A stretch of DNA of 64,000 nt, from the NCBI RefSeq assembly GCF_000524195.1, contig NW_020170383.1, positions 441,912 through 505,911 of the forward strand, given 5' to 3'. Made by a program: the position numbers and the translations under genes. Each line of letters starts with the position of its first letter. Within the stretch, counting starts at the first letter, position 1. Positions 30,421-64,000 of the stretch are shown here, piece after piece. The notes below the pieces were generated by a model. The model saw only the letters and a program-made list of their open reading frames with translations. It did not search any database and was not told the DNA's origin. Source of the stretch: Echinococcus granulosus. Taxonomy: Eukaryota > Platyhelminthes > Cestoda > Cyclophyllidea > Taeniidae.

Positions 30421-30563
30421 GACTGCGAAAGGTAAACGTCAGGTCACTTTGCTATTTCATGAGAGCACAACCTAGATGACCACAGATGGGATTTAAAGCT
30501 GCTCACTGCTGAAGCACGACGTGTTTTATTCATTAAAGAACCTTTTAAATAGGAAGATCTGAA

Positions 30564-30569
30564 AATAAA
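30564..30569 (+). promoter_or_regulatory. Poly(A) signal of tetraspanin gene
   Basis: AATAAA 144 bases downstream of the tetraspanin stop codon; a second copy follows at 30594-30599. Confidence 0.5.
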
Positions 30570-31668: not shown

Positions 31669-31674
31669 TTTATT
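31669..31674 (-). promoter_or_regulatory. Poly(A) signal of SNRNP70
   Basis: AATAAA on the minus strand 26 bases after the SNRNP70 stop codon, consistent with a very short 3' UTR. Confidence 0.6.
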
Positions 31675-31699
31675 AAAAGCTGAATTGTTGACAGACAGA

Positions 31700-33680
31700 T
31701 TAGTAATCCCCATTATATTCCGCTTTAATCTCCGCGCCATACTCACCATACTGGGACATTTCATCCCGACGATATCGGTCTCTGCGTCCATGCTCGCGGG
31801 AGCGATCACGACTGCGTCTTCTTTCCCGGCTATCTGAAACGAAACGTGAGCTACAGTGCATAATTTACACCAATAACAAACGCACCCGAAGCAAAAGTAA
31901 TTCACGATGAAACCAGGGACTTAAGCAACCAAATTAAAAGTAGCTTACGGCTCCTACGACGACGATCCCGGTATTCGCGGGACCTACTGCGACGTCTTCG
32001 ATCACGATCGCGGTCGCGGTTCCTCTCGCGATCCCGGTCCCGATCGCGATCTTCATCTCGCCTCCTTTCATCACGGCGTGAGTCACTGGGGCCGCTGCGA
32101 GACTTACCAAGACCCTTACCTGTTAGCAAGCGGGAATCGAAAACGAATAATGTAGGCAGTCAAAACGACACACCGTCCAGTAGGAGGTGATGCTGAAATA
32201 CTGTTGCAAATGAAACGATTTTCTAAAGATTCAAGTGCCATAACGAATGTCTGTTAATGAATAGAAAATTGATAAATTGGCAAAGCAGACTTTAAAACGA
32301 ACCCAATCGCCTCGGTCGCCAATCCGGACGGGTCCTTCCGCGTTCAATGTCGGTAAGAATACGGTGTCCATCAATTTTCCGGCCGTTCGCATCCTTATTC
32401 GCAGCTTTACAGTCAAAGCAGGAGTCGAAGACAAGAGAGTTCAAGAACGGAACAAGAACGAAGTAACAGGTAAACACAAATGATACCCGACCTAGACCGC
32501 GCTTACCAAAACTACCGTTGGCTAGAGCGTCGTACTTTCCGTGGACATAAGTTGACGAAGTTTGGACCTATCCCAGTGTGGCTACTGCGTATTATCATGA
32601 GCAGTATTACCAGAGCAACCTTTTCCCTGGTAAATCTTACCCGGCTTACCAGAAAATAAGATTAAATGTTGCAATTTGCCTAATGACATTCAAACGCGGC
32701 TAGAAGATCCCAAGCCGGCAATTGTAATTCGGTCTGAATAAAAAAAGACAAGAAATCTTACATCAATGCCTTTTTGTCACAAACTAATGCTTTCCCTTAA
32801 ACCAGGTACCCAAAGAAAGATGCGAGCGCTTGCTCCGAACATAAGCCATACCTGACGCAAACTGATATCTAAGTATTTCTCATCCAGTCGTGCTGGCTGA
32901 TTAACTGTCATCTGCGCTTCAACAAATGGTCAGTACAAAAAATACAAGAGGGTATGACTCTACTCAGGCAGAGAAATGCGGTGAACATTGATTACAACAC
33001 TAGTTAACATACAAAAACCAAACTTACCATGCATGTCCCTTTCATGCTCAAACTCGATAAAAGCGTAACCCCGAGGCTTGCCAGTAGCTGCATCCTTGAT
33101 CATGAATATCTGAAACCGATGAAGTACCAGAACATGAAACTACCTTCTTGATCGGCCCATACACTTCAAACTCTCTGCGCAGCTTGTGTTCAGAAGTATC
33201 GTAGTTCTAGATTAATAGACTGAAAAAGGCACACCTATTTACCAGTCGAGCAACGAAGAGAGTGTTATAAGCATTTGTTGTACCAGAAACAAGTTTCTTT
33301 GGATTCCCTAAAGGAATAAAGTGGACAATCAGACATACACAGAGCAAGATCGCGTTCAAGTTTGTAATTAGCCTGTTCCTGTTTTTCCTTTCGTTTCCGA
33401 GCCTTCCTTTCCTCTCTAGTTTCGATTCGAGATGAGGCGGGAGTTTCGGAAGGATCCTGTGCGTCACAACAAATAATGATTTTAGAAAGGAGGGGTTAAA
33501 AACAGTAAATAACACAAAAACCCAACAGCTGAAAAATACCTCAAATTCCCCCAAAAACTGGGCAACACCGGTATATGGAAGTTTTCTGTGGTTTTTGTGC
33601 TTTTCTATTGGGGGCACATATGGAATCGGGTCGCGCGGAGCAAAAAGGGCAAGCAGATTCGGAGGCAGAAACTGAGTCAT
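31700..33680 (-). CDS. SNRNP70: U1 small nuclear ribonucleoprotein 70 kDa (U1-70K)
   Basis: Core protein of U1 snRNP; binds stem-loop I of U1 RNA and helps define 5' splice sites in the nucleus. Exons (minus): 33540-33680, 33339-33456, 33243-33307, 33144-33206, 33028-33109, 32303-32404, 31949-32119, 31700-31833; 291 residues (human 437). The start [20 protein letters not shown] is almost identical to human. ETREERK and NPKKLV lead into the RRM with RNP2 (TLFVARL) and RNP1 (RGYAFIEF), then [19 protein letters not shown] and WRPRRLG. The C-terminal part is a short run of alternating Arg/Asp/Glu and RS dipeptides ending in EYNGDY. The gene has introns of 31, 36 and 34 bp. ROPN1L starts 499 bp away on the other strand. 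Confidence 0.95.
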
Positions 33681-43207: not shown

Positions 43208-44680
43208 TTATCTGCTATGCTTCCTTTGGTTAATTGGAGCATCTTCTCGATAAATATGGTTAAAAGTTTGCGAATGATTTGGCCAGTTACTGACTCTTCT
43301 AACGTAGAGAGCATCTCTTTCAGTCACCGACGTAATTTCTTCATCGTAATTGCCTGTCCGATCAAAAGATTTTGGAATGTTCACACTAGAGCTGTTATTT
43401 TCACGAACCCTTCGGCGATTCAAAACGGCGTAGTTAATGAGTTCTTCATTTTCCTTCTCCTTTACGTAAAAGTAGTTGAAATTGGAAACAATCACAGGAA
43501 CTGGAAGTGCGATTGTAAGAACTCCAGCAACGGCACATAAGCACCCAACGAATTTACCTAGCATCGTTTGTGGACGCATATCCCCGTAGCCCACAGTGGT
43601 CATCGTCACCACAGCCCACCAAAAGGAGTCGGGAATGCTGGTGAAGCTGTTTGGACGAGAGTCCAATTCCGCGTAATAAACTGCGGTAGCAAAAAGTACC
43701 ACACACACAATTACGAAAAATAGCAAAAGGGTAAGCTCACGACCGCTCGTCACCATAGTCTTGGCAAGCACTTGTAGGCCCTTTGAGTGACGGGAGAGTT
43801 TCAGAACTCGAACAACACGAAAAAGTCGCAGAAAACGGAAAAACCGTAAATAAACTGTAGGAGATGTAATAGGAATTTCAAAACACATCATTACCACCAA
43901 TGCATAAAATGGCAAAATGGAGGCAATGTCAAGGATATTCAAGGCACTTTTAAAGAATAAATATCTGTTGGGACAACTGTAAAACCGTATGACTATCTCA
44001 ATAGTAAACCATACCATACAAGCTAATTCTAGGTAAAAAAACTCTTCTTTGAAGAAAATGTTGTCAGTTGTAAATTTTGGAACTGAACTGCTAATATCTA
44101 CATGGTAGGTAATAAACATTGGTAGTGTCTCCAGACAAAAGCTCGCCACAGATATCAAAATCATTGTCATGGAGAAGAAATAAAACCACCTGGCGTAGCA
44201 AGAGCTCAAGGGATATTCAACAAACAACCACATATTTCGCCGAATAGCATCATCGGGCAATAAAATATCCTCGACAGATTTCAGACCTTCGTCCCTTAGC
44301 AAAATTCGTATAACTTTTTCCCCAAGCTGAAAAAACTTTACTTCTTCCAAAAACACCGCAAGAGATACTGTCAAGGGACGTTGAATAAGACCATTACTTT
44401 GGTAGTAAAATAAAATACTTTCAAAACTTTCCCGATGTCTGTCAAAAAAGTAGTGTCCACGATGAGGATCAAAAAATGTGGCGCGCTTCACGGGGTCACC
44501 GAGAAGAGTGCTTGGAAATCTATGCAGCGTGGTAGCATAGGTCTCAAACACTAGACCGCTAACATTAAAAACAATTCTCTCTGGAGAAACTGGTGAATTC
44601 TCAGTTGCAGCACCCTCTTGCTGGTGATATTGTTGTGGATCAGATGCGAGATTTCTTGGTCCACTTAAAAGGAATGGCAT
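43208..44680 (-). CDS. Shaker-type (Kv1) voltage-gated potassium channel subunit
   Basis: Single-exon channel gene of 490 residues. The T1 tetramerisation domain (about 36-125, NVSGLVFETYATTL ... FFDRHRESFESILFYYQS) is followed by S1 (165-188), S2 (212-233), S3 (245-262), S4 (277-298, Arg/Lys every third residue ending KLSRHSKGLQ), S5 (314-336), the pore with selectivity filter TVGYGDM (362-368) and S6 with the Kv1 PVP hinge (ALPVPVIVSNFNYFY, 391-405). Start chosen at the ATG at 44680; the open frame extends further upstream without an ATG, to an acceptor-like GTTTTTGTTTAG. The C-terminus ends NQRKHSR and lacks a PDZ-binding TDV. S4 has one arginine more than Shaker, and Arg369 sits at the external TEA position (Shaker 449). 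Confidence 0.95.
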   Translation of the reverse strand: MPFLLSGPRNLASDPQQYHQQEGAATENSPVSPERIVFNVSGLVFETYATTLHRFPSTLLGDPVKRATFFDPHRGHYFFDRHRESFESILFYYQSNGLIQRPLTVSLAVFLEEVKFFQLGEKVIRILLRDEGLKSVEDILLPDDAIRRNMWLFVEYPLSSCYARWFYFFSMTMILISVASFCLETLPMFITYHVDISSSVPKFTTDNIFFKEEFFYLELACMVWFTIEIVIRFYSCPNRYLFFKSALNILDIASILPFYALVVMMCFEIPITSPTVYLRFFRFLRLFRVVRVLKLSRHSKGLQVLAKTMVTSGRELTLLLFFVIVCVVLFATAVYYAELDSRPNSFTSIPDSFWWAVVTMTTVGYGDMRPQTMLGKFVGCLCAVAGVLTIALPVPVIVSNFNYFYVKEKENEELINYAVLNRRRVRENNSSSVNIPKSFDRTGNYDEEITSVTERDALYVRRVSNWPNHSQTFNHIYREDAPINQRKHSR

Positions 44681-47600
44681 ACATAGGTGAAACTTAAATT
44701 TGTATTTGTAAAACACTAAACAAAAACCGTAGCCTAGTTATATCTATAACAGGTAATTCTTGACGCACAGACTCCTGTAACTAGAAAGGCAATTAACGAA
44801 TATTAACAAATTAACGAACTCTGAAAATAAAAGGGTCAACATGCTTACAATTTTGCTGGTTTATATTTGCTTATTACAGGCCTATTTTTAGATGCAAGGC
44901 TTGGTATTTCTGGTACTTCTGAGTTACCAATCCAATTTACTTGAGACCACATGACGAGCGAAAACACCAAATGTGCTGTGGGTCGAAATTAAACTAATTA
45001 CGCATTCATTAATAAGATGGGAAGCTTAAAAAAACTACAAGGTCATATATTACCTTAGCAAAACCAGGTCTAAAACCGAATTTCTTAAAAGTTTGGAGCC
45101 AGTTAATAACGGCTGTGAAAGATACCAATTCACTGAGTGCCTATTTTATCCACGTAGATGGATTTATGCATATTACCTTCAGTTTTTTGAATAAGATTGT
45201 TGATGAACAGCTGTGATAAAGCTTTCTTAAATTTATGAATAAGCCGAAAGTTTTGTTCCAAGTTGTTAGTTACGCAAAATTTAGCCCAGTTTTACTCCTT
45301 CAAATGAGATCAATTTTTATATGAAAAATACATAATACATAAACGTCATGTAATTTTAATTTGATTGTGTAGACTCACAGTAATGTGTAGAATTCGAAGA
45401 TTGGGTACTTTTATGTACGCACTTAACGACTGTAATAAGGCATAACAGAGTGAAAGAAGCCTTATTATATCGTATGGAAGGGTTGAGTCAAGCAAGCCAT
45501 TGCAGCGAGATCATGTAGGCCTTCTAGTCTTATCGAAAGTGGTAATAAGCCATACTAGTGGGAGGCGGCCAAATATTGAATTAGGGAGGAGTTGAAAGGC
45601 TAACGGCATAACTGGAGCACCGTGCCACCGAGTGGAACACAACCTACGGAAACTGATGAGACTATGTAGTTAAGGAAGTTACCCAGACATTACGGTCACT
45701 TCACATGACTTTTGTGTATAACAAATTTTTTTTGTACCAACATTCGTTTTTACGATTCTGTCACAATAAGGTAGTATGTGACAGCTTCTATCCTCAAAGT
45801 ATTAGTTCCGAAAGACCAACTCCAGATGGATAAAAGGAAAGTTTTCTTTCTTGGTAGATAATGGGCTTAGTTTTATCAGATTTTCGAAGATTCCCCAATC
45901 GCAACTGAAAAGGCGCTATGGATAGTATGGATTAAGGAAGGTTTTTTGCATAATCTTAATCGAAATGCCAAATGTAAAAGCACGTGAAAGTTTCACATTC
46001 CTTAAAAAAAAACTCGTTTGTAACGTTTGCACAGTGGAAAAAAAACAATTCTGATGGCTATTAAGTGATTTACGAGAGATATTTCACTGCCACCTTTCCC
46101 TCATAAAGGATGCTCTGACAAACAGCACATATCTGATTGATATTCTGGTAGCTTTATCCCCACATATCAAAAACTCCTTGTTAAAAATAAGTTCCTTCGT
46201 ATTCGACAATAATAATACGGTAATTCAGTAATTTTTAGTATGTAAGCCACGTAGAAACATTGAAAATGAATCTGGAATTCGAATTATAGTGTTGTGGTCA
46301 TAGCCCTTCGGGCTGAGGATACTGCACTGGTGGGGATTTCTGCGGGTTCTTCGTCAACAGCTTTTGACAAATTACGCAATATTCAATCCACGCGTGGTTA
46401 ATAAGCTAAACTTCTAGAAATGGATTTTATGCGGCTGACGTCACGATCTCCAAACGCCAAGCAGCCCTTGGAAACGCATCATGAACAGCGGCGGTGGAGT
46501 AGTAGTTTGAGGTCGTCTCTGGATGAACAATGATGCCACGTATTACTGACATTGCACATTGTCTGCGTCAAAAGCTCGTGGGATTGTTGTGCACTCCCAG
46601 TTTTGCACCGCTTTTGTTCGTGAGAGCAGAAATTGAACAATTGCCAGGTTCCACAGTACCTGGAGGGAGAAGGAGGCTGGAACGTCGTCTCTATATGGAT
46701 GAATCTGAACTCCTTGGGGTAGGTTTGGAACTGTCTTTCTCCAGCCTGAACTAGAGCGACGTCAAGCCCGTGATTTACAATACATTTGGACCCAGTTGTT
46801 GCTGTTTGTGAGGTCGCAAAGGAACCCTGCCCGAACATGTCTGGGACCCAAGTGAAGGTGGAGCATTTGAACTGGTCGTCGGTCTCTTCCTTCAATATAA
46901 AGCTTTCGCACCGACGATTGATCCTCATAGTACTCATCACCACACTTTTCCAACTTCAAGCGGTTTTGGCTCAGATTGAACATCGAAGATTTCTCACTTA
47001 ACACATCCCCCGGGTATTGTTTCAATGTTGTCAAAGCTCATACCACTTGAGGACCAACAAAACGAAGTTAGTATGCTTCTCGTAGTAGAAATGGGGTTTC
47101 CTGCTCATGATCAGTATTAGCAAGCTCAGATCAGAAAGCATCATCATGCCCAATGAGCTAGAAATCGAATGAAGTACCGAAAAACGAAAAATGATGAGAC
47201 ATTATTATACTATTGACAACAGAATCGACAAAAATGACAACTGTGGTGAGATGATAACGTGGACTTGGCTCTAAGATTCTGAAGTGGATTCTCGAACACT
47301 TTGACTTGAGGTTGATCAATTTACACTTGCTGAATTTTCAGAGTATTATTTACTTAATCGACAGAGAAGGGAACGCCCCAGTTTCTTGAAGGATACTACG
47401 CCGCCAGCCGTAATGAACTGGTTCCTGTGTGTGTAGGCCTAAGCCCTCCCGAGTTTCCAACTCAAGTAATCAGAAGACAGACATTTTTTTTTTGTTTTCC
47501 GACGAGTAATATTTAAGCTGGGGTACGCCATGTGCGTGATTGACGGTTGGCTGACTGCCGAGGATACAAGGTGATTTCATTCTCACGTTTTTATTTTGAA

Positions 47601-50010
47601 TGGTCCTGATCCTTCAATGATTAATAGCACACTTGAAGTCTATTCGTTTCGAATACTGGCTAATTGGAGGACATGAACCGATCTGCGAGTTTTAGAATGC
47701 TAGACAAGAGAAAGATGCCTTCTTGAGAAGTGAGGCAGGAGCGTCCCCTATGGTTGCAGACATTCCAGAATAACCTATATGAAAATATTATCATTTTGCC
47801 ATGCGAGGCGAATGTCAGAAGACGTAAAAAATGGCTTGGCAATAACCGCAGAATGATGATACTATGCACTTAGGCTTTGATTTAAGAGTACAATTTTGCA
47901 TAGTATAAGAACAGTCTTTACAGTGCGCAATCAAGCAGGATGTACCTCGATTTCCGAGATGTTATAAACAGGGCCATTTAAGAGAAGTGGTGAGTGAGTA
48001 TATGGACCCTTCTCACTTCATAAAGGTCAGTTAATGAAATAACAACGCGATTTAAATGTTAGAAATACCGGCTTTGATCACAAGAGTCAGTGAATCAATG
48101 GAGTATTTAAGTCAGCTGTTTGTATTTTTTTTTGGTAACTTAGCAACTTGTAACTTTGTGAATACCTCACTAACGGACTGACATAATCGACTCCAAACTT
48201 GGAGCTTTCGGTGACTGATTGCTGAGGGTGTTGTGTTTGTGCATATTGCAATTTACCGCGGCAAGTGAATTTGTCTATCATCACATGGCGTTTTTGAAGC
48301 TCTCTTCAGATGAGTGAAGCGTGACTGTAAAGCATTATCTGCTTAAGGGTAATTGAATTTGCTTGGCAGACAGGCGAAAGCAGAACAAAAGTCCAAGTGA
48401 CTGCCGCATCAAGCAAAAAAAGCTATTTCCCACCAGTCAAACAAATATCGGCGTCAATCGTTTGAAGCAGAATAGGGTTTTGCAACGTTTTTTTTGTTAA
48501 ATAATAGGACATTCACCTATCACCTTTTCCACCAAGAAATATGGTTGATACTTTGTCGTGAATTTATAACTCAAACAGAGATGTATTAGTGAGGCAAATG
48601 CTTGTATAAGAGGAAGGTTAACAAACAAAACTTTGACTTTGTTGATCACCGAATGTGAAAGATATTCGACTGGAGAATGCCTGGATCAACGAAGAGCCTG
48701 GAAACTTTGTATGACTAAATATTGCAAGATTCTGGTTTATAACAGCCCGTTAGTTTAAATATTTACATGAATAACCATAAAACTTAGTTCTAAACGGACA
48801 GATGTTCCATCAACCCATTAACTTCGTGTAATATGTGCCCTGGAGGCAATGAAAGCTTAAGAGAGAAGTGGTTTGACCGTATCAATTTCTTTAGAACTGG
48901 CTATTAAAGATGAACTAAAGGGAATAATCAGGCAGAACTGGCAAGCAAGCATCTCATTTGCTTGAATTCTTCCTGGCTTAAAAGACTACTGTAACAGAAA
49001 ACCCATTAAATTGCAATATACTTTAACATTGGCGCATTCACTATGCAATTAAAACTTTTCAAATGTCTATGTAAAGCTGAATGAGTCCTAAATGGTAAAC
49101 CACTTTGTATTTAACCATAATTATGACATACTGCATTAACACCTGGCTATCATATGTAAAAACATAGTTGGAGTACCAAAACCAAGGGAACATCGGCTTG
49201 GTTGCAGTGGCAACTCTCGACACGACTTCATCTTGTGCGCAAAAGCACTTCGATATTTCATTTACCAAGGTGGAAGATAGTTACGTGAAGAGCGATGAGG
49301 CATACAAAATTATGTGACATCGCTATGACGAGGAGACCATCAATGTACTCCCGGCACAACCGATTACCAAGAATTTAGTTCAACGTGGGGCTGGCATGCA
49401 CAAACCTAGCGCATTCAAGCGGACAGAGGGCAGGCTCCATAAATGCATAATGCAAATTACCAAAGGCTAAATAGTTCAGAGAACATCACAGACTACTGAC
49501 TGACTGAAGTAGAGGATTTGCTTATTTTCCTTCCCTCCTCTACAAATCCCAGTGATAACCACTCATTCATAGAATTTAACACGACAACAGCTTTGTGGTC
49601 GAACAAAACTTCCTTGAACAATATGCACCACTACGCCGACAATATGACATCTGTCTACAAAAATGAAGGAACGAAAAAGCAGCTGATGACCAAACTCAAG
49701 TCAATTCGTCGATGACAAAGCGCATCACCCTTTGTGAAAAAAACTGCGGTTTTTTGAACCTACCTACACAATACGCACAAGAAGAGCTCGACCAGCAATA
49801 TTTATATGCCTCAGTAATGTAGAGGTATCTCCCCTGAGGGGGACGATCAAAACGAATCTTTAGGCAGGTAGCATGCTTTAGTGAGCCACAAAAGCGTCCA
49901 GCCAAGTGTCTAGCAAATCATAGTCACTTGCTTTGCTTATCAAAAATATGCTTTAACCCATACCAGAAGACTCAAAATATCGGAATGGTTGGCTGAAAAA
50001 GCATTTACTC
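44681..50010. other. Gene-poor interval
   Basis: About 5.3 kb without a supported gene. A less AT-rich patch at 46.3-47.1 kb is open on both strands but its translations match nothing known to me. Confidence 0.45.
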
Positions 50011-52841
50011 TCAAACCTCAATATCGGAATCCCTGTCTTCCTCAAGGGCGGTTTCAAGATTGTGTCTAAGACTTTCATCCACTTCCTCATCCTCGTCGTT
50101 CTCATCCTCCATCTCGGTGGGGCTTTTGGAATTTACCGGTGCGGGTACTTCATTATTTTCGATAGCCTTACGCAAGGCCAGGTAGGCGAAGTAGTCGAGG
50201 TAGTAAGAGGCACCGTACCATGACATCACCACCACCATAGCTACAATCATGATGGTGTGAAAGAGGAAGGTGCACCAGGCCAGCAGGGATATCATGTTCA
50301 AAACAAAGTTGACAATGATGTTCAGTCCCACCCATATCAACGTCTGAACTCTACAAGGGACCAAATAAGTACGTTCAAAGATCGCACCCACCCATCACTT
50401 TCACCACTTTGGTGATGGGATATTCACCTTAAGACAATTAGACTGCATCGAAAGGGGCAAATAAACATTAGCGGTTAATTCATGTTAAGATGCTACTTTA
50501 TGAACTAGTGAGTAAAGAAAACATACATTTTGGGGATGCGCTTGAAAAAATCCACTTTGGAAAAGTATTTTGTACGAAGATAGCGGTAATTGTCGTTGTA
50601 TTTTTCATTTGGCTTGATTATCACATGCACAATAATGAAGTAGAGTAGCTAAAAATAAAAAGAATCACCCACATCAATTGAACAGAACCGGTTTATGTCC
50701 ATGAGTAAAAAGATCACCTCGGACTGACAAATGCGTATACGAAAAGAGTAAACAATGGACACTCTTAGCAGATCAACTAAATTCCTGTGTTAAATTTCAG
50801 ACGCGAAATAGACTTGAGATTTAAAATGTGTCAACTATGTTAAGGCGCCTAAATTATAAGACAGTGATTTATTCAGCAGAAAAACTAAACAAACGAAGTA
50901 AAATATCCAAATTATGTTCAACATTTAACCAAGATTAAAAGAGAATTTGGGAAAAAAACAGATTTCCAAGTCAGTTATTCTAAGTTGAGTAGTGAATAGG
51001 GTCAGCGTGGTGTACCAGCACTTTCAACGCAGGCCCCTTGTATAAGAAAAAATTATCATAGCAATTACAAAAGTAGAAACTGGACGAGGATGCAAAACTG
51101 CGGGCATATGAATTTTAAGAGGACTTAGAGAAGAGCTTTGATTTGCTGCTAACTTTTTGGAATTAGACAAATAAATACAGCACAGAAGCATTCAACAGGC
51201 ACAATTGATGCTTGAAGTTCTACTTAACGTATTGTTGGTTTTCTGGGAAATGGCATTAAAATAAAAACAAACGACATAGCTATTGTGATTAAAGAGGATT
51301 TAGGCCCAATAAAAGGTGCGACACGCATGTAGATAAGTAGAGACTAATAAGTCACAATACCAAGCATAGTTATTGCATATTTTGAGACTTGAATAATCTT
51401 TTAAATAATGTGTGGTCTAAATAATGTAAATAGTACAGAAGACTACTTTAAGTCGAATACATGCAGCACATAACACATTATTGCCCGATGGCTACTTGCA
51501 GCAGTTTACTGGTGAGCTCAGCACATAGAATGAAGCTCTAAAATGATCTACCGTGTGTGCGATGAAGAAAGCGTTCGGGATGACAACTAGGTAGATCCAG
51601 TCATCCATGGGATTGAATACGGAGACATTGGTGCTTCCATCTGTATTAACAAAGCCTTTCCACCAAGGGTTAGAACAATTCTCAGGGAACCATCGCACAC
51701 TAAAAGCATACAAAAAACTGTGATATCACCACCTGATAAAACTTAGTTAATACATTTATATAGGTACGCAACCAAAAAAGTACTTGAATGACGGATCAAA
51801 CATGTTTACCTTTTACTTGTTTTATTAATTAACAAACAAGCATAGGGTACAACATCTAAAAATTAACGGACAACTATTCGATTTATTATTCAACGATAAA
51901 AACGTCAACAGTAATTAACTGCTAAAGCAGAATTTAGGGAAAAGAATAAAACATTAATTACAATAGAATGATACTTTATGAGGGTTGTAGGACTATTTTA
52001 GGGTCAAAATACAATAAATGCCTTACTTTTCTACAGATTCGTGATTCCTTTTATTACATCGGAATAAATAAAGGCCAAATAAAATACTGAAATTTAATGG
52101 CTAAAGAAACAAACAGTTAAATCTCGGAAGAAGAATTATCAGCAAAGAATGACAGGCACGCCGATGAACCACAATATTTTTATACAAATTTGGGAAAACA
52201 TGAGAGAGTTCTGGTAAGAATTGGTGCCGATTTGAACTGTGCATCATCTTATCTAAAATGTGGTTGCATTCAATGGATTATATTTGTGACAAAATGCAAT
52301 TAATTGTACGATTAGAGACTCACCAATATGATATGAGTGGCGGTAAAACATGAATAAAGCAGGAGGTCATTTTGTCATAGTTATGAAACACAAAAGAGTT
52401 CCGGAAAATAATTATTGCACTATAGACGGTTGAGTTGGCCAAACCAAAGAGAACGAGAAATACTGGACGCGAATCCGGGACTGCCCTATAATAACGTCAC
52501 AAAAGTGGATGTATTCCACTTACCAAATAAAAATAAGAGTGTACACATTAACGAAGTAACAGGGTCCCAACATGAATAAGATATTGTTTGATCGTCTAAG
52601 AATAATTATGTAAGATATGGCTTACGTGTAGGCTATAACGCGAAATATCATTAGGATAACGAATAAAATTGTCAAGATGAGAAACAAAGCTGGAGGGCTG
52701 TACACCGCACAAAAGACAAAAACTGTGAGCAGTGTAACAGATAGGACAAACGTGATTTTGTTGATCAGAACAGGTGGTATTAACTAAAAAAGATAGGCAT
52801 GCTATTGTAAAACATACTCTTTTTCGTTCTGTAGTACTCAT
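50011..52841 (-). CDS. Glycerophosphocholine acyltransferase family protein (DUF2838, Gpc1/GPCAT1-like)
   Basis: Multi-pass membrane protein of the family whose yeast (Gpc1) and plant (GPCAT1) members acylate glycerophosphocholine to lyso-PC. Exons (minus): 52818-52841, 52626-52783, 52524-52595, 52324-52485, 51552-51699, 50527-50648, 50011-50350; 341 residues. The family signatures are seen in order: INKITFVLSV (first membrane helix), GPCYFVN (equivalent of DFCYYAN/LCYFVN), FRNSFVFHNYDKMTS followed by FIHVLPPLISYCVRWF (the family's most conserved block), then WIYLVVIPNAFF and LLYFIIVHVIIKP. The C-terminus is a long Glu/Asp run after residue 295 that the plant enzyme lacks. Introns of 34, 30 and 38 bp separate the first four exons; without the 72-nt exon the conserved CYFVN would be missing. 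An AG 16 bases before the ATG may be a trans-splice site. Confidence 0.87.
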
Positions 52842-53726
52842 GAGTTTAAAGGTTGATCTATAAATAGACTTGTTTTGTAGAGGCGCTAGCACTTAAAAAA
52901 GGCAAGTAATAACCAAAGGGGAAACCACCAACCCATTATTATAAATGCTTAAAGAGACTCAAAGGTCAAACTGAAAAATAAAACAACTTCAAGGCCGAGC
53001 ACCACTTCCCATTATAGTTTAGCCCAGATTCCAAATTAAAAGTTTCATTTTGAATGTGATTTGAGCAGCAGCTGAGTAAATCCCTAAGTCAGGCACGGGA
53101 TGCAATCGTTAATTTATTACGATTTGATGATGCGATCACATAATATTGTACGAAGCTAGAATGTCCAGCATAAAAATGATATACATTTTGATTTAATGCA
53201 TGATTAAGTTTAACAGAGATTTCACAAAGGTCATTTCCTACTCTGTTTGTTACGCGAAATTTATCTTGCGCAATTGTTTTCTTTTTAACTTTAAGAGACT
53301 ACTGCAATTTGGTGCCCTAACTAAAGCGTTTAAGCATTAATATATATACTGCTACTGTAACGAAATCTACAGAAGCGCAGCTGGAGCTTAACAACATTAT
53401 GAAAAAGATGCCTTCTTATTAATTCAACCGCGGTTTACATACGCCCTGATGCCAAATTGTTGACATTGCGGTGATTGTCACGATACCTACTATCTTGGCC
53501 CTTGCTTCACCGTATTCTCATAATTGTATAGCTATATGTGTGCATAATGCAATTTAATTCCATTCATGCCGAACTCCTTGCTTCTGTTACGTTGAACAAT
53601 TTATGAGCTTGAATATCTTACACTTGGTCTAACTATTAGCCTTGCAACATGCATTCCTATTGATGCGAAGGGCGGATTGAGGATTATCTTGAACAGTTAG
53701 AGATTCACCACCTAACTCCCAAAGGT

Positions 53727-53826
53727 NNNNNNNNNNNNNNNNNNNNNNNNNNNNNNNNNNNNNNNNNNNNNNNNNNNNNNNNNNNNNNNNNNNNNNNNNN
53801 NNNNNNNNNNNNNNNNNNNNNNNNNN
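53727..53826. other. Assembly gap (100 N)
   Basis: Exactly 100 undetermined bases, a conventional unknown-size gap. Confidence 0.95.
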
Positions 53827-54455
53827 TTTTAGTTCTCCTATTTCTATAGCTAAATCTGATACTTTGGAATTTATTGACGCTTCCACTTTTGCTGTTAAAG
53901 GCACAGCTCGAGACGAATTGCAGTTAGTGAAGACCTCAGAACAACTCCGGGCCAAGCAACGGCGCGACAAATAGGAACCTTGAATATCTTGTAAACTGTA
54001 ACGTTGGTCAAGGCCTTTACAATACCTGCATTCTCTACCCTGATTCTACTATATAACTATATTTGCGTAGCTATTTGTGCGCATAACATAACTGCGTTTG
54101 AGTCATTCTGAGTTCTTTACGTCCACTTCGTCACACTGGCATTGTGTTTGGGTTGCTCTCTTATCTCCCAATATCATTATTTGTAGGATCGTATATGTAG
54201 TTAAAGGGTTTTTCGCAAAAATATGGTGTGAAATACGGGCAAATGAACTCAAAACGCCTTCTTTTTCAATATTTTTAATTAGAGGCTTTTCATTGGTATT
54301 ATAGACATAAAATTTTTTATCGGAAAAAATGGAAATCACCACTATAGAACTTTTCATTGGAAAATATGTACGTGGCAGTAGACTCGTGGGAGAGAACTGT
54401 GGGAGTCAGTTTTACTTACCAACCTTACATTGTGGACCTGAACTTACCCCAAAAA

Positions 54456-54461
54456 TTTATT
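54456..54461 (-). promoter_or_regulatory. Poly(A) signal of orphan gene
   Basis: AATAAA on the minus strand about 190 bases downstream of the orphan gene stop at 54650. It supports that gene ending before the GPC acyltransferase gene begins. Confidence 0.45.
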
Positions 54462-54649
54462 TGTTTGAAACAATGTCATCACAGTATAGTGAACACCAAT
54501 GCAAAATATTCGTAAGCAGGGATTCATGATGTATAATCGTTATTCTAAAATGTACATTTTACAAATAGCACTTTCAAATCCAGATAAATGAAAGGCGAAA
54601 CAGTGTTACTCACTCAAAAGAGGGCCATAGCGGACGTAAGTAAGATGTA

Positions 54650-56537
54650 TCACTCCAGGGTGGTTGTGCTGGTGTTTAATGACCCTGATTCACTGCCATT
54701 TCTGCTGAAGCCTAGGCTGCGAGTCTGTGGTTCCTGCTGAATATCAACCACTGTCTTCCAGTTCCTTCGACGCTGTAGACGCTCCATTCTGAAAGAGTCA
54801 GGATCAAGACGACAACCAGCTTCTAGCTGTCTGAGCAATTCACCGTTGGCACCCGAGTCCCACTCCAAAAGCGTTGCCGCCCACGCGTCATCGTCCAGGT
54901 AGTCCAAAATGCGCAGATTCCCTTTTTCGGAGAGCTAAATGATTAACACCTTGAAATTTAAATACAAATTTTACCAGTTAAAACCAAATACTAAACTTTA
55001 GATACAGAAAACTCAAGACAACACTATTTACATTGAGGTTTATTTTCCAGCAACCATGGTGTTGTTGTTGTCACTTGATAACATTTGAAACCTTAAAAAA
55101 ATGAACAGTTAGAATAGGCGGACTATGATAACATAAACATACGAACCAGGAATTGGAAACTAACACTTTGTCTACCAATAGTAGATGCTGGCAAGAAATC
55201 TAACCATGATTACAGCTTCGCTTGCCTGTCAAAATGTTGAAGAAATTATGAAATGCTTATAGCTTTGCAACGATTTTGTTGCTGCTGTGGTTACTTTATG
55301 GAGTTTAACTCTAGCATATTTCGCTTATGTATTACATTTCTACGCTTTTTTTTCTTAACATTAAGCCTAGCCTTAGCGCTGACTGAAACGGTTCAAAGTA
55401 AGGGCAAAATTGCGCAAACCAAATGGGCCTTCTGGTCCGATTTAGAATCTCCAAAAGCGTATACTTCGTATAACCGATTATCTAGTTAAGGTTTATGAGT
55501 TAACGGCCCATCAATATGCACACTTTGTGCCGTTACGCAACCAGGTAATTGACGTATGGGTTGCGAAGTCATTAAATGTGGCACCACATCGAACCACATA
55601 GATGACACACGGTATTGGTGAAACTGAGAGGAAAACTACTTCACTTGAAAAGCAAATCACGAGTCTGTTGCATGCGCGTTTTTTTACTAGCGGAATATAT
55701 CTGCCGTTTTTACAACGAGCCCTAACCTCAAGGTTGTTTTAGCTCTTACGGTGGAAATTTGATGAGACTGGGGTTGGAGGGGGGAGACGTGGTTTTAATG
55801 TGTGCTTTCACGTAAGTGGTACCATATGCAATAAAAATAATTTGTTTCTTCGTTCAAAGAACTAATTTGACACAAACTGAATGTCATATAAAACTACTAC
55901 TCTAATGACCTAGTCAAGATGAGTAAATGAATTGCCTAGATGACAGGAAATATGATAGCACATCGCGCTTATTTGCCATCGTATAGCAAGGGGAAAATCA
56001 TGCTACCATTTTACTTAGCCTTAGAGCACATCCGATAGAGGATGAATGATTTGGGCTAGTCAATGCACAGGTAAATAGTATTTTGATCAGAGGAATGTAG
56101 TTGAAGGAATTGCAATTATGATATCAAGAGGAAACCACCTTCTCCAAAGTGACCTCATCTCCACTGTCGGTAGTTGCCTCTCCCAAGGTTTCTAGAGTAG
56201 TAGTTGAACCACATTCTGACTTCCAGACATCAATTTCACCAGTTGGGGTAGTCACGAACTGCGGCAAGACGGAGTCAAAAGGATGCCTCACAGCCAGGCT
56301 TACGGTCACTACTTGCTTGTGATCGGCCGGCATTGAAGACTCTACCCGCCTAACGGCGATCCTCGTATCATCGGGCAGCACAAATTCACTCATATACTGC
56401 CGTTTTACCCTCTGACTAAGAAGGATGACAGAGGATTGAATGTCAGATCGAGTCTCACGAAAGTGAAAGTCGGCAAGTTGTTGATTGGGACCGATGTTAA
56501 ATCTTGATCGGACGTTTTCTTCTGCAAATTGATCCAT
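54650..56537 (-). CDS. Two-exon hypothetical protein
   Basis: Exons (minus): 56139-56537 and 54650-54934, both phase 0, joined by AAG|GTGGTT and ATTTAG|CTC; 227 residues. The ATG at 56537 lies 13 bases after a strong pyrimidine tract ending TTTCCTCAG, a good trans-splice or UTR acceptor. Not recognised. The first exon has no membrane helix or signal peptide and contains mixed charged sequence (VKRQYMSEFVLPDDTRIAVR) and a Thr/Glu-rich end. The second begins LSEKGNLRILDYLDDDAWAA, has a basic MERLQRRRNWK stretch and ends in a Ser/Thr-rich tail. Coding character is supported by two long frames with matching phases, a start-side acceptor and a poly(A) signal, not by homology. The whole could alternatively be parts of a longer gene. 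Confidence 0.5.
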
Positions 56538-59154
56538 TATTAATGGTTCCCTGAGGAAATGAAGGAGTAGGAGGAGGAAGAGAAAGAGGGCAAACGAAAC
56601 GTAATGATGCGAACCAATGCGGCCATTGATCGTGACCACTTTTCGACACGCGAACACGGATTTGCCCTGCTGCCTGATTGGCCCATTTGACTGCAAGCGG
56701 TGGGAAAATTGTCCATTCCCCACTGCAGGGAATTAATACTGCTTGCCGTACAGTTGAAGCACCTGAACTTGTCCTCAATGTATTATTTTAATAAATATTT
56801 TAGTATAACTCTTTTTAGCTCATTGGAATTTTGATGTGAATTGGGGCAGTTTTCCCATTTCTTTGAAATGCATTTCGGTGAGGCGTTTAGAATTGGGAAG
56901 CCATGTCATGCAAAAGAGGCCGCACTTTGTGGGGACTGTGTAGTGGAAAGCCACTTTCTTTAAGTCGTTCTCTACCCACATTACCACTATCACTAGTAAC
57001 TTAGCTTTTATTCTTCTCGAAATTGTGCAGTAAACTTTCTCGCAGAATAACTAGTTATACTTTTTATCAGAGCTGGTCACGCCTTTCCATTTCCAGAACC
57101 TGGTTACACTTAAGATTTGGCAATTAGGGTCGTTTTTTTGGTTCTCCACAACCAGCAAGCAAATATTCAATTGATGCCTATCTTTGATAAAGCATTTTTT
57201 GAGACTCAAATTTGCTACTTATTGCTACGAGTAAACAGTACTTGATTATCATTACCTTACGGCAAATTAACTGAATCCGTTCGTCCTAATAACTTTACTA
57301 ACTGAAAATGCATTCCTCTCATCTCTTGTTTTTTCCCAGAATTTCTCCATTTGGTAAGTGCACACCTACTAGTGTGCTGTGTCGATCCGTCCTTCATAAC
57401 AAGCAAAGCATAACATGACTGTATTATCAAACAGCAATGAATGCATGATTTGTAAAAAAATGGTTAATGCTTCTCTACGGATAGCGGAATTTCTCGTTCT
57501 TTGGTAAATTAATGAAGGAACAATTTTTTTAACCGGAAACGAAACTGGACTACATTTCATTGTCCCCAGATGTTTAAGTGGAAAAATTCAAATATAATAT
57601 GCGAATACTTTTAGCATTTATTCTACTTACACAAATTTTTATTATTTTAATTAAGGTAGGACTAAATTACTTTTTAATATAATTAGTATGCATTGCATTT
57701 GATCTGATATTTACCGTATGGTGTCGTGATACATCCTGGGAAAGAGGCTTTCAGCTTCCTAGATAATTCCAAATATTTCGTTTTCCGGAAATAGGAGAGG
57801 CTACCTCATTAAAAGTGAGAAGGAATCCTGTTGAAATCATCATCGATCACGTTAGCATTCACAACCAACCGGTCTACGTTTAGGGTGAAAAAGACTGCAA
57901 TAGGTGCTATTGAGGTGTTATGGGTAGAAGGAATAATTTAGTCATGAGTTCTACAGCTCAAAGTTATTGTTAAGGCAACCGGTGATATTTAATGAGCAAT
58001 TCCAAGACTCACTTGCTGCACTTGATAAGCTCCATACACCACCCTTGTTACATTCTGCAGTCATGCTTATAGAGGTGCAGTTTTTAATTTCGTCTCCAGT
58101 TGATGGCTAAATAGTGAAAATAAAACTAACTTAATGCTTTTCAGGGCAGCGATTTCTCATATCAGCTGCATCGGGCACCGCTGATTCTAAAACACATTTT
58201 GAAATATCTAATTGTTGAGATAGATAAACTAATGTAGCAGCCTGAAACTCTGCTAAAGACGAAAGAAGACATGATACTCGGGCAGAATATGCACTGTTGA
58301 CGTACATCAGGACCTAAAGCTACCGGCATGGCCGGAGGCTAGATTGACAAGCAAAGATACAAAGGCGGATGCTCAAAGTGGCCTCTTTCCCTTATTCGAG
58401 AGTTAGATATTCAACGCATTACGCTAACGCTATTACATGAAAGTCAACTTTTCAAAATGCTAATCATTTCCCGACCTAGTTATTTTAGACACTAAAAATG
58501 GCACATTTAAATGGAACCGTTAGTTATAATGTACATATATTTTTATTCCGATTTTTCGGGTAGCAAAAGAAAGATGTGGGGAATGTACTGGGGTATTACT
58601 TGTATGTCTAGGCAGAGATGTTGAATATGCCGAATTCCGGTTGTGGCAATCGCTAAGAAACACGGTGATCGAATTTGCACTGACCGAGTGAATAAGTTCT
58701 TAAGGATGTCAATGACATCAGTTACGTTTGTCAGTGTAGACCCCTAACACGTAGAGGGAGAAGAGTCCGAAGACTCACATAATCACACTAGCGCTGCATA
58801 AGACCTTTCTCTCATTATGCCTTCTAACTCTTTACAAGTTTGTGAACTCCCTTGACATCAGACAAAGTACAAATTGAATGGTCTAGCACTGAGCCAAAAC
58901 TCAAGTAAATCTATAGAGTCGTCTTATAAATGTGATTGTAGAGCGTTGAAAAATTACAGGGGATAGCGCTTGAGAAGTGAGTTAAGTGTGAGTTTGGTAA
59001 AGTTATCTTCAGGATTCCTTATCGAAACGATCAATTTAGAATGGGGATATTCTTTAGTAGGGGACTAATTGGCCTGCTAAGCCTTAACTAATAGCTGCGT
59101 CATTTACTGCAAAGCACTCCAAACAAAAAAAGCCGAATCACAAAAGCCATTTCA
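56538..59154. other. Intergenic region
   Basis: About 2.6 kb, AT-rich, between the divergent orphan gene and the GC-rich island before the micro-exon gene. No exon, RNA gene or repeat recognised. Confidence 0.45.
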
Positions 59155-59340
59155 TGTTGGTGACGCACGAGCGGAGCAGGTAACTCGTGATGTCGGCGCT
59201 TCGCGAAGGCATGAGGTGGGTGGCTCAACCAATGGGGAAGAGGTGATTCCTTCGGCGAGCCACACTGTGCCCGCGAGCATTTAATTTCACGTCAAGCGCT
59301 CCATCCTACCCTCCATAGGGTGTAAGTAAGTCCGCCTATC
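59155..59340 (+). repeat. GC-rich structured island, candidate terminal-repeat (TRIM/solo-LTR) or SINE element
   Basis: A short GC-rich block standing out from about 35% GC flanks. It begins TGTTGG and contains nested inverted repeats: CACGAG (59166-59171) with CTCGTG (59184-59189), the palindrome CTTCGCGAAG (59199-59208), and GTGGCTC (59220-59226) with GAGCCAC (59257-59263). A consensus splice donor GTAAGT lies at 59322-59327. Tapeworms of the family Taeniidae are known to carry abundant non-coding terminal-repeat retrotransposons in miniature; this block could be such an element, but no second terminal repeat or target duplication was found within the window. Confidence 0.4.
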
Positions 59341-59475
59341 CATCTGCTCATTTCTTCGATTTTCTCTGTTAAGTTTTACTTTCATTTTGTTCATAAACCC
59401 TCTAACTAGTTAAATAATCGAGTCGCGTGCTAAACCGAGATACTCCATCGTTATATTGCGGATAGTCTGTTTATC

Positions 59476-62400
59476 ATGAAATTCTTATTCTTAAATATGG
59501 TAAGGTTTAATAAGTAATTACGAAAAAGGTTGTAAAAGTTTGCAGTTTCATTGTGGCAGTTGTGTTTTCAGTACAAAAGACATTTAATTCGGATTATTAC
59601 ATTTGCAAGAATATAAATGCTTCTGTTTAGGTATAATGCAAAATATTTTACCCAATACCGCGGCCATTAATAGTTCAATTTGCGCATGCGTTTTGAAGGA
59701 GAAATATTAATGTGCGAGAACTCAGATCTCCGCAAGAATTACTGTTGTGAGGTTTTTTGGTGTAATGGAAAGTATTGGGTGAACCGAAATCATGATAATT
59801 TGCAAAAAGAAGTAGTTTTGGTCAAGATTATTCCAACAGTTGGTGTTGTAGGTTAATCATGACTGTCTTGTACGCAACCACTCTGAATAAGCACAGCTCT
59901 TCATGTGATGTCATTTGAAGCCCGTCATGCCAAGCATTATTTTTGAGCACGATTTCTCCGTGCGCACTATTAAAAACATTACCTACTTCAAATGAATTCA
60001 CCTTAAGAAGCATAAAACTGGTGCTACTCTTTTTGAAACATCGAATGGTAAATTTTGGGCCACAGTTTAACAACTAGCCTTAACTCCATCGAAGGACGTT
60101 GAGGTTTAGGTAAACATTGGATTTTACTATTTACAAAATAATTATTCTTCTCAAATTAATTAAGCTCCTTTAATCTAATAACCTAAAATTAGCCAAAAAT
60201 AGTTTTGTCAAATTTTAACACGAAACATTAACGCAAATATGTTTTCATTCTCTTCAAATTTCCTCCCCATATTATAAAAAATACTCTAATTTGCTTTTAG
60301 AGCATGGTAGATCGACATTTTAATTCAGGTAAGCAAGCGGAGCAGCAAACAACACCCTTCCTAATGACAATAAAGTCAATTCAGAGAAAACAAAAAGTAT
60401 GCAAACTAAATACACCTGCATTTCATTTGAGACGTTTCTCAAATGCGTCTTTAAAATGCCGATCAAAATAAGTGACTGTGCCTTAGAGAAAATGCATTTT
60501 ATACTTTATCCACCACTTGACCGTTCAGTGTTGCATTTGATTATTACGCTATTTACCATCTCTCGCCAAATTATGCATTCAGTGACTGCAGAAATCATCC
60601 AGCAGGAATGATTCTGGCCCAGCACGGCCGTTAAGGTTGAGATCGGAAAAAAGCGAGGCCAAAATCGGTGTGAGCCAGAATAGGAAAGTGAGGGCACAAA
60701 AAAACAAACAATTAAATATTATTAACCGTTGTTATATTGTATACAGGTGACGACTGGTATCAGGGTAAGCCGTCGACAAAAATTTGAGCGCCTGGTTTCA
60801 CATAAACACTTGAATTTTCAACAGTGTAGCTAATCATTTGAAATTTAAGTGAGATTAGGCTATAACCAAGTGATGCTGTCATTGCCGAATAAGGTTTGAC
60901 CTAACAATCACTACCACTTTAGGGGGCTATCGAAGCACTGGAGGCACAAGACTTCGAGAAGGTACTTTTTGTTTCTATAGTACTATTAGAATAAACACAT
61001 TCTCCCCTTCTCATAAGCAAATACTAATTCAATTTTATATTAGAATTACAGCAGATAAAGCTGCTTTTAAGTCACTGACATGATCAAAGTGATCAGAATA
61101 TAATATCCTTTGATCGCCTCTAAGCAAGAGGTCTAGGGCTGATCGCTGCTGCCAAGTAATCAGCAATTTCTTGCACTAAACTCGCTCACCCTTTACCTTC
61201 ACCTCAATTGGCTGTAAACACAATAATCTTCAGCCGGTCTTAAAGTGTAGAAACCCTCATAAATGCACACAAATTCACTTACAAGCTTTCAATCGAAAAA
61301 TGGGGATATCACTGGATTCCATCGACAACAACCATCAAGGCATGAGGACATCTGATTATTGGCGCCTACATTTAAAAGACACCATTGTCGATGCACATGA
61401 TTGATGACTCCTCGATTTTCACTACTTTGCAGCTCCACAGCTCAGCGGACCCCGTAAGTTTTGTTTTGATCTGTAGCTAAGTAAAAAGCACTAGTATGAA
61501 CACAGAAGAGGCGTAACTGAGCTTATTAAAAGGAAACTAAAGTTACGGTTTTAATTTAAATTCTTCTCCTTTATCAGGCAACTATTTCGGTGAGTTGTAC
61601 CTTTTACTTTCTAAACTTTGAAGCCAAAATTCACGAGTCTTTCTGCTGAGACCAATGGTTCCGTTTTAGATGACTCAGATTCTTATTATGGATACTCAAG
61701 TGGTATGTTGTCAGCGATTTTACAATGTTGTAAATTTGTCAATACTTAGTTGCAATAATGGTAGTAGTAGAGACACTGTAGATTTTATCCAAAGCGACAC
61801 CTAAAGTGTTGTTGGTACTGAGATGTAGGATGATGTACTCACCTCAACTGCTGCGTCGTTTGCTGCGCGGAGCAAGATGAAGATGCAATCGCTAACACTT
61901 TTATCCCACGCATTTCTAGTTGGTCAGCCGTACAGCACCAGCAACGGAAATGTAGCATATTACGACTCAGGTAGAGTTTGTATTCACTATTTGGGATTTG
62001 AGACTTCTTAATCTAGTTCTAGTTTGGCAATATTTGCTTTCTTAAAACTAATTATGTTATTATGAGGTAATACCTCCATTTGCCCCTTGAAAATTGCTCA
62101 ATGCAAATCTTGCTATCCTTTAATGCTACATTTTTACATAATGTCCGAGTTGTTTTGTCTCCGTACATAAAATCAGAGTGGAAAGTTAGTTGTAATGGTG
62201 GAATTATACATGTAAGGGATATTGCTTTTTCAAGTAGGAGATAAAAAAGTCGATTGTTGACTTCTTTTATTGAAAATGTAATAATTTCCTGCAATAAGCA
62301 TATTGCAACTGAAAAGCGCACTAAAACAAGTGTTCTGATTCAATATTTGTAATAAATTAAATCCCCCTTTTTAAAGTCCAATTTTACCCTGTGCATTAAG

Positions 62401-62859
62401 AGTAACAATTGGAAATATTTCAGCTGACTGGTACCGACCGAGAAACCCCACGTATTCTGCAGGCTACAACTCCGGTGTAAAGGGTTCTTTTTATACTGGT
62501 GAGAAAAACAAGACATTCAATGATACCTTAGTCACTAGTGGGGAATTACACGCTTTGCTGATCCAACTCCATCAGTGTTAACGTGCGTAAGGACATGCTC
62601 TGCAATTAGAAATGTTAACTGCATTTACATTCATGCGTCCTGCCAAAAGCATGGGCCTTTTTCGAAAATGCGGACATCTCCCGCATCCTATAGGCACTGC
62701 CATTCTACAAAAGCATCGGGCACTTGATTTGAAAAGCCTACCAAACGTAGTCGATTGTGTATGACATTCCCTTATGCACACGTTTGTACGTTGATCGCCT
62801 TTGTTTCTGTTTTAGGCGATATGCCGTACGGAGTAAGAGCCGTTAAACTCACCATTTAG
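59476..62859 (+). CDS. Micro-exon gene for a secreted Tyr/Gly/Ser/Asp-rich protein (MEG-like)
   Basis: Exon chain: 59476-59504 (29 nt), 59546-59624 (79, or 59546-59570), 60301-60328 (28), 60747-60764 (18), 60923-60961 (39), 61433-61453 (21), 61578-61589 (12), 61670-61702 (33), 61920-61970 (51), 62424-62498 (75), 62816-62859 (44, with stop). The seven exons from 60747 to 62498 are all multiples of three and phase 1-1, so any can be skipped without breaking frame. The N-terminus MKFLFLNMVSFIVAVVFS is a clear signal peptide; the rest is low-complexity and hydrophilic (NSDYY, DDWYQGGYRS, DDSDSYYGYSS, YYDSADWYRP). About 142 residues with the long exon 2. The design equals schistosome micro-exon genes (secreted, variable by exon skipping); no sequence family is recognised. 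The 3' end is uncertain: an alternative donor at 62833 would lead to an 18-nt exon at 63637-63654 and onward out of the window. Confidence 0.75.
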
Positions 62860-64000
62860 TGTAGTACCACCCTATATTTAAATGGATTTTCTTCACTTTA
62901 AAATAGAATGGCAATTTGGTAAGTAAAAAATTAAAGGAATTGCTGGGAAATGACACTGTACAACATTTTATGCCGTTTGAAGGTGTGTTTTTTTGCCTCT
63001 AGTGGCTTTTCTTTGTAATAATCACGAGTTAGCAATTAGCATTCGACACAATTATTTAGCAGACATTATAATTGGAATCATTTTTTCAATAATTATAGAA
63101 TTACCCTTCACAACCTCCCGTAAGTTGTTGCCATTATGATGGACCGCAGATTTGTAAAAGCTTTAATGCTCGAGTAATCTGTGAAGAAGGAATGCCATAC
63201 TCAGTGGTATATGCTCGTGTACTGCAACACTACTCTACGCCTCTAACAAATGCTGCATTTTCCATCCCAGCACATTCGTTGGTATAACCAGGGCCAACCG
63301 GTAGAACGCGTAAGAACAAATTTTGGTGTTCTGCTATATGACCCAATGCTAACACTCTCAGACCAATTATGGCCAAATATGAAAGATCCATTCTTTTCTG
63401 AGAACCACAAAAGGAGTTGATCAATGACAGGACCTTTTTTTAACTGATTTTTTTTCTTAAAACCATAAGTCATGCCTTAAGAATACTGGATGTTTGAGTA
63501 ATTTAGAAGGAAGAGAAGTTTTAAAGGCATTTTATAGTGCAAACCCCAATGATCCTGGACAACTGCGGAATACGCACCTATTTCATGGTTTATGATTATT
63601 GCACTCAACTGGAAATTTTCGCCTTATTTTTGCAGCCAGGATCCAGGGGAGAAGTAAGCATTCCTGCCTGCCATATTCCTCATATTGCTGTAATTTTAAT
63701 GCGGCAGCTAAAGCTACTTATCTCCATAATCTGTAACCTTTGCCAAATAGCCTCACAAGTGCCCAGTCATTTGAGAACTCATTCACTATTAAGCTATCAA
63801 ATGACTCCTCCAAACATGCTTTTTGTGTGCATCTGATCAGATCGAGTAGCGGGCAGTAAGGCACTTTCCAAAAGCGCTTTCAAATATGTGCGGAATTACT
63901 TACGAAAAGAATTATAAAATGTGCCACAGAAAAGGGCTTTCAGATTACATGACATTCACGCTGACTTGAATAAACGAAACTTATGGGTTTTCTTAACTTT
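62860..64000 (+). other. Possible 3' continuation of the micro-exon gene
   Basis: No independent gene seen. An 18-nt exon candidate, PGSRGE, lies at 63637-63654 between a strong TTATTTTTGCAG acceptor and a GTAAGC donor. It joins in frame to a shortened exon 62816-62832, so the micro-exon gene may extend past the window edge. Confidence 0.35.

Follow-up and report, generated by a model that had tools for sequence, protein, structure and literature searches.

The locus at 59476-62859 of the window (the whole 64,000-nt stretch of DNA that was analysed) raises the question of whether a series of very short segments constitutes a genuine micro-exon gene (MEG) for a variable secreted protein and, if so, where such a gene begins and ends. 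A sequence-only reading had proposed eleven exons running from a signal peptide to a stop. All eleven segments (29, 25, 28, 18, 39, 21, 12, 33, 51, 75 and 44 nt) were recovered, the internal ones preceded by AG and followed by GT, and together they translate in one frame to the stop as 124 amino acids. The 79-nt variant of the second exon (59546-59624) is likewise present, and the seven consecutive exons of 18-75 nt are indeed divisible by three and in phase 1-1. The core of that gene model was retained, whereas both of its ends are probably wrong, given poor donors at the 5' end and, at the 3' end, a GTAAGA donor with in-frame micro-exons downstream. The locus is quite likely a cestode MEG of about 14 coding exons with ends revised as in Table 1; its transcription, splicing, secretion, exon skipping, disorder and role are predictions made from the DNA.

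The revised model comprises 14 coding exons spanning 6.4 kb and 438 coding bases. Splice sites were scored with generic metazoan weights that were not trained on this organism. On that scale the donors of the 12 internal exons (60301 to 63653) were all above zero (12/12; 0.9 to 7.6), with core acceptor scores of -0.3 to 4.2. Acceptors at the locus have only a short TTTYAG-like core and were scored by it, a threshold based on a long pyrimidine tract having given zero candidates. Weak sites are the donors of exons 60923, 62816 and 63271 (0.9-1.3) and the acceptor of 63099 (-0.3), and several exons of the model were identified post hoc.

Table 1. Coding exons and signals of the predicted gene, with the first two exons proposed earlier (positions in the window; splice scores on the generic scale).
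Feature	Position	Strand	Description
Proposed first coding exon	57599..57655	+	57 nt, phase 0 to 0; predicted signal peptide MRILLAFILLTQIFIILIK; donor AAG/GTAGGA
Exon 1 as proposed earlier	59476..59504	+	29 nt; doubtful; may be an alternative first exon
Exon 2 as proposed earlier	59546..59570	+	25 nt; doubtful; 79-nt variant is 59546-59624
Asymmetric exon	60301..60328	+	28 nt, phase 0 to 1; acceptor TTTTAG, donor GTAAGC (7.6)
Micro-exon	60747..60764	+	18 nt, phase 1-1; DDWYQ
Micro-exon	60923..60961	+	39 nt, phase 1-1; GYRSTGGTRLRE; weaker sites (acceptor 0.8, donor 1.3)
Micro-exon	61433..61453	+	21 nt, phase 1-1; PQLSGP
Micro-exon	61578..61589	+	12 nt, phase 1-1; NYF
Micro-exon	61670..61702	+	33 nt, phase 1-1; DSDSYYGYSS
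Micro-exon	61920..61970	+	51 nt, phase 1-1; GQPYSTSNGNVAYYDS
Exon	62424..62498	+	75 nt, phase 1-1; DWYRPRNPTYSAGYNSGVKGSFYT; strongest match when the protein was searched against its own genome
Asymmetric exon	62816..62832	+	17 nt, phase 1 to 0; switch joining the two blocks; donor GTAAGA (0.9)
Added micro-exon	63099..63119	+	21 nt, phase 0-0; NYPSQPP; donor GTAAGT; weakest acceptor (-0.3)
Added micro-exon	63271..63309	+	39 nt, phase 0-0; HIRWYNQGQPVER; acceptor ATCCCAG, donor GTAAGA (0.9)
Added micro-exon	63636..63653	+	18 nt, phase 0-0; PGSRGE; acceptor TTTGCAG, donor GTAAGC
Proposed terminal exon, coding part	63944..63952	+	IT, stop TGA; acceptor GGCTTTCAG (2.3)
AATAAA polyadenylation signal	63969..63974	+	begins 17 nt past the proposed stop

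The ten skippable exons fall into two phase blocks, seven in phase 1-1 and three in phase 0-0, held in place by the two asymmetric exons of 28 and 17 nt. Since skipping either of the latter shifts the frame, these two are predicted to be constitutive and the other ten skippable. Omission of the 28-nt exon (60301-60328), which was found by hand to be open in phase 0 alone, leads to a stop at residue 72 of 136. The last base is G or C in the 28-nt exon and throughout the phase-1 block, so that no skip can create a stop at a split codon. All 1024 of the 1024 skip combinations are open to the same stop and yield 1024 distinct proteins of 36-145 residues. A variable MEG would be expected to have such a design, skipping itself being predicted from the frame.

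The core protein (124 residues) contains 14% Gly, 13% Ser, 13% Tyr and 9% Pro, no Cys, a single Lys and few Leu or Phe, with a GRAVY value of -1.27. This composition is consistent with a disordered secreted protein, and secretion is predicted from the hydrophobic N-terminus that is present with both first-exon options. MEG products in general have a signal peptide and are either secreted or anchored in a membrane. In the proposed mechanism, exon 1 would supply the signal peptide and the 28-nt exon would move the phase from 0 to 1; the seven phase 1-1 exons would follow, and the 17-nt exon would restore phase 0 for three 0-0 micro-exons and a short terminal exon. The mature product would have about 126 residues and be cysteine-free, hydrophilic, rich in Gly, Ser, Tyr and Pro, probably disordered, and secreted. 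Any of the ten frame-neutral exons could be retained or left out during splicing by the spliceosome, each omission removing a few residues, usually with Tyr or Trp among them, and a single locus could in this way supply the host interface with a range of secreted variants. A further and rather speculative proposal is a two-block splicing device with the 28- and 17-nt exons as obligatory phase switches, in which exon choice inside each block would set the number of Tyr/Trp "stickers" on the secreted, disordered protein and thereby tune its self-association or its binding at the parasite surface, beyond epitope variation.

A structural Tyr-rich secreted protein, such as an eggshell, gland-cement or Tyr-cross-linked matrix precursor, could share the Tyr, Gly and Ser content and the hydrophilic, cysteine-free character of this core, and its small exons would then be incidental, with no variation device. 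Tyr-rich eggshell precursors exist in flukes. The single Lys of the core and the short length of about 126 residues argue against such a role, however, and ten frame-neutral exons in two phase blocks exceed what a structural protein would need. This explanation is considered unlikely.

At the 5' end, the earlier model takes its signal peptide from 59476-59570. The resulting MKFLFLNMVSFIVAVVFSS has the hydropathy of a good signal peptide (3.10), the frame joins that of the core, and the second exon has a good acceptor (2.7). The 29-nt and 25-nt first exons are nevertheless doubtful because they need very poor donors, namely GTTTAA (-4.7) for the first and GTACAA (-7.0; 25 nt) or GTTTAG (-11.1; 79 nt) for the second, as against 0.9 to 7.6 for the 12 internal exons. 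The first exon also passes over GTAAGG at 59500 (5.1), five bases earlier, which is a good donor but loses the frame if used. Direct joining of a 24-nt form of this exon (59476-59499) to 60301 was tried by hand and rejected, with only an 8-residue hydrophobic start.

Scans of 54001-60300 and 45001-60300 turned up a single further signal-peptide exon whose phase fits, at 57599-57655; it joins 60301 in frame and has a donor of 4.6 and a peak 9-residue hydropathy of 3.12. Exons of this quality (donor of at least 4, hydropathy of at least 3, phase 0) numbered three in the scanned stretches, itself included, or about 0.006 per kb-strand, and about 0.02 would be expected within the relevant 2.7 kb. 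Its weaknesses are an AT-rich sequence (19% GC), the lack of an obvious cleavage site and a position 2.6 kb upstream. No further phase-0 symmetric exons were found between 57655 and 60301 at the thresholds used. From these signals, 57599-57655 is more likely to be the first exon than the two exons proposed earlier, and at least some use of it at the 5' end is modestly favoured.

At 58145-58237 on the plus strand, TTTTCAG is followed by a phase-0 stretch, noted by eye, that reads GSDFSYQLHRAPLILKHILKYLIVEIDKLM and then a stop; splicing of the signal-peptide exon 57599-57655 to this stretch could provide an alternative terminal exon. Its 3' edge overlaps an interspersed repeat (58223-58429), which lies inside the proposed intron 1 and has at least 46 partial matches of 70-92% identity elsewhere in the genome, on both strands. 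An Echinococcus spliced-leader sequence, sought in the same genome with up to 3 mismatches, gave no match, and no evidence of trans-splicing was obtained.

At the 3' end, the 44-nt last exon proposed earlier, which ends at TAG 62859, runs through a GTAAGA donor; cut there, it is 17 nt long and ends in phase 0. Downstream of 62832, three exons lie in exactly phase 0, each closed by GTAAGN, and are left unexplained by the earlier model. After 63653, an acceptor leads into ATT ACA TGA, followed by AATAAA at 63969. This terminal exon was chosen because its acceptor at 63944 scores highest (2.3) among the seven listed past 63653 (63708, 63767, 63841, 63850, 63857, 63930 and 63944) and has AATAAA behind it; other terminal exons, for example 63841 (IE, stop), are possible. 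The gene thus modelled probably extends past 62832 to 63952 or beyond. Bases 64001-72946, directly after the window, are N (8,946 bases), and the gene may run on into them.

Beyond 62498 the chain can also continue in phase 1 by way of 63063-63119, which is AT-rich, encodes a hydrophobic peptide and appears in the best automatic chain described below; 63099-63119 was preferred because, in our judgement, the extra part resembles AT-rich intron. The HIRWYNQGQP of the 39-nt exon 63271-63309 echoes the DDWYQG and GQPY of earlier exons, a post hoc impression.

Two polyadenylation signals (AATAAA or ATTAAA) occur in 62491-64000, AATAAA at 63969 and ATTAAA at 62930, the latter of which might serve a shorter alternative 3' end. 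The ATTAAA would also suit the earlier model exactly as written, which is nonetheless distinctly unlikely in view of its 5' donors, the GTAAGA within its last exon and the micro-exons beyond it. Use of both starts and both stops is similarly improbable; the two candidate first exons would be alternatives to one another, and reading on beyond the 17-nt exon would give a shorter C-terminus with its own ATTAAA. Both first parts do enter the 28-nt exon in phase 0 and two polyadenylation-like signals are present, but the upstream donors would still be very poor and ATTAAA is a short motif within AT-rich DNA. The revised ends are preferred to either arrangement.

To evaluate the core chain, 294 kb of this genome (the window together with 200 kb of upstream DNA, of which 31,041 bases are N, and 30 kb of downstream DNA) was scanned on both strands for phase-consistent chains whose exons measure 9-78 nt and are multiples of three. 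Within 60001-64000 the top symmetric chain had seven exons and scored 16.3; the runner-up location, with either strand of the 294 kb considered, reached 10.7. Dinucleotide-preserving shuffles of 60001-64000 did not reach 16.3 in 500 trials (0/500; maximum 14.1) or in 20,000 (0/20,000; maximum 14.0). Because the best symmetric chain at the locus outscores both 294 kb of genome and 20,500 shuffles, the core chain 60301-62498 is very unlikely to be a product of chance. With a looser scan setting, applied to the window and 200 kb upstream, the locus again ranked first (32.4 versus 25.8). A scan permitting asymmetric exons returned long chains everywhere, with no discrimination, and was dropped as a test.

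Five of the seven exons in the best automatic chain match the model (60747, 61433, 61578, 61670 and 63636), exon 63636 being read in phase 1 in the chain and in phase 0 in the revised model. Exons 62463 and 63063 of the chain use alternative acceptors and share just their donors with model exons 62424 and 63099, and three symmetric model exons (60923, 61920 and 63271) are missing from it. The 12 internal exons of the model total 372 nt, or 124 codons, and are free of in-frame stops; translation in the two remaining frames meets 4 and 5 stops. GC content is 50.3% in exons and 36.7% in introns, and the exon value was reached by none of 20,000 random placements of equal length. For the four added or shortened exons (62816, 63099, 63271 and 63636) it is 54.7%, a value matched or exceeded by 20 of 20,000 placements. 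Single exons vary, with 36% at 60301 and 33% at 61670. A fortuitous line-up of splice-like sites, or a gene in decay, would fit the empty homologue searches as well as the indiscriminate asymmetric scan, but is very improbable against the symmetric-chain score, the open frame, the GC contrast and 12 internal exons without an in-frame stop or a lost GT or AG.

Searches for relatives of the protein agreed with the initial impression that it resembles no family. Against 5.8 billion proteins, the earlier model yielded 2 candidates sharing words and the revised model 6, none of which scored, and no match was found in Pfam or among PDB sequences. The window's tetraspanin, used as a control query against the same protein database, retrieved 4 proteins, one of them a named flatworm protein, so the empty result is not wholly uninformative. 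Short-exon genes are often unannotated. A protein search of the gene's own genome (103.6 Mb, 272 contigs) returned only three of its own exons. In a DNA search for a second copy, with 40 of 666 candidates scored, the matches listed apart from the locus itself belonged to one interspersed repeat. Among the listed papers on tapeworm MEGs, none describes such a protein in its title or the opening of its abstract. The locus looks new, while the gene design is already known.

The window is animal DNA: the ten ORFs scanned in it include a Kv-type potassium channel (BTB_2 and ion-transport domains), a tetraspanin, the N-terminus of U1-70K and a fragment with a Sac domain. The closest named relative of the tetraspanin is from Hymenolepis weldensis (65% identity), and an unnamed assembly protein is 85% identical. 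An Rfam match to K_chan_RES (RF00485, potassium channel RNA editing signal; 43481-43594, minus strand, 91.7 bits) falls inside the Kv channel ORF at 43208-44737 (minus strand) and may reflect coding conservation only. The window's second-best symmetric micro-exon chain (30044-32897, minus strand; score 10.7, 6 exons) lies downstream of the U1-70K N-terminal exon and may be a chance result or reflect genuine short exons of that gene. A decayed cox1 copy (C84:42156-43243), similar in its reading to a flatworm mitochondrial gene, is found in frame pieces inside a larger contig, with TGA read as Trp; its AGR codons stand at positions which are Ser in cox1, and the copy probably derives from mitochondrial DNA inserted into the nuclear genome. 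With the tetraspanin relative, it is taken to indicate a cestode.

In parasitic flatworms, the group to which the tetraspanin relative and the reading of the cox1 fragment assign the host of this locus, few genes are as poorly understood as MEGs. The locus contributes a tapeworm case whose exons are precisely listed, and suggests that the visible stop of a MEG can be intronic. In the available text of the tapeworm survey (PMC7653826), MEGs are defined as having 7 or more exons, of which no fewer than half are micro-exons (shorter than 70 nt, with a length divisible by three), and a run of 4 or more of these. The revised model has 14 exons (11 in the earlier one), 11 of which are shorter than 70 nt and divisible by three by coding length. 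Micro-exons account for 9 of the 14 when the first and terminal exons, which would also include untranslated sequence, are left out, and for 6 of the 11 in the earlier model. Six are consecutive (18, 39, 21, 12, 33 and 51 nt). The MEG architecture proposed by the sequence-only reading thus conforms to the published definition as far as that text gives it.

The same source counts 52 MEGs in Hymenolepis microstoma and, in Echinococcus multilocularis, at least 8 and later 35 (PMC7653826). As described there, tapeworm MEGs resemble the present locus in their run of many exons shorter than 70 nt and divisible by three and in being hard for gene finders, for which reason its authors call MEG curation across flatworms a high priority (PMC7653826). 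Unlike in H. microstoma, where ten of the genes form one tandem family by that account (PMC7653826), no second copy was found here. The one H. microstoma MEG family motif given in the part of that paper available, 21 residues long, had no match in this genome in a search run without a positive control (PMC7653826).

Comparison with schistosome MEGs, as far as the cited texts are available, reveals both differences and similarities. About 80% of the coding sequence of schistosome MEGs lies in symmetric exons of 6-36 bp (PMC5825161); here, out of 438 coding bases, 132 fall in symmetric exons of 6-36 nt and 327 in symmetric internal exons regardless of length, and the exons are longer (12-75 nt). 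The core is rich in Gly, Ser and Tyr, with 9% Pro, in contrast to the prevalence of Pro, Phe, Leu and Lys in schistosome MEGs (PMC10526429), individual proteins of which are reported to be disordered (PMC10526429). The MEG-4, -8 and -9 families were reportedly not found in cestode transcript databases (PMC5825161). In common with the schistosome families (PMC5825161, PMC10526429, PMC4350168), the predicted gene would begin with a signal peptide, continue in small symmetric exons with few conserved motifs, and permit exon skipping.
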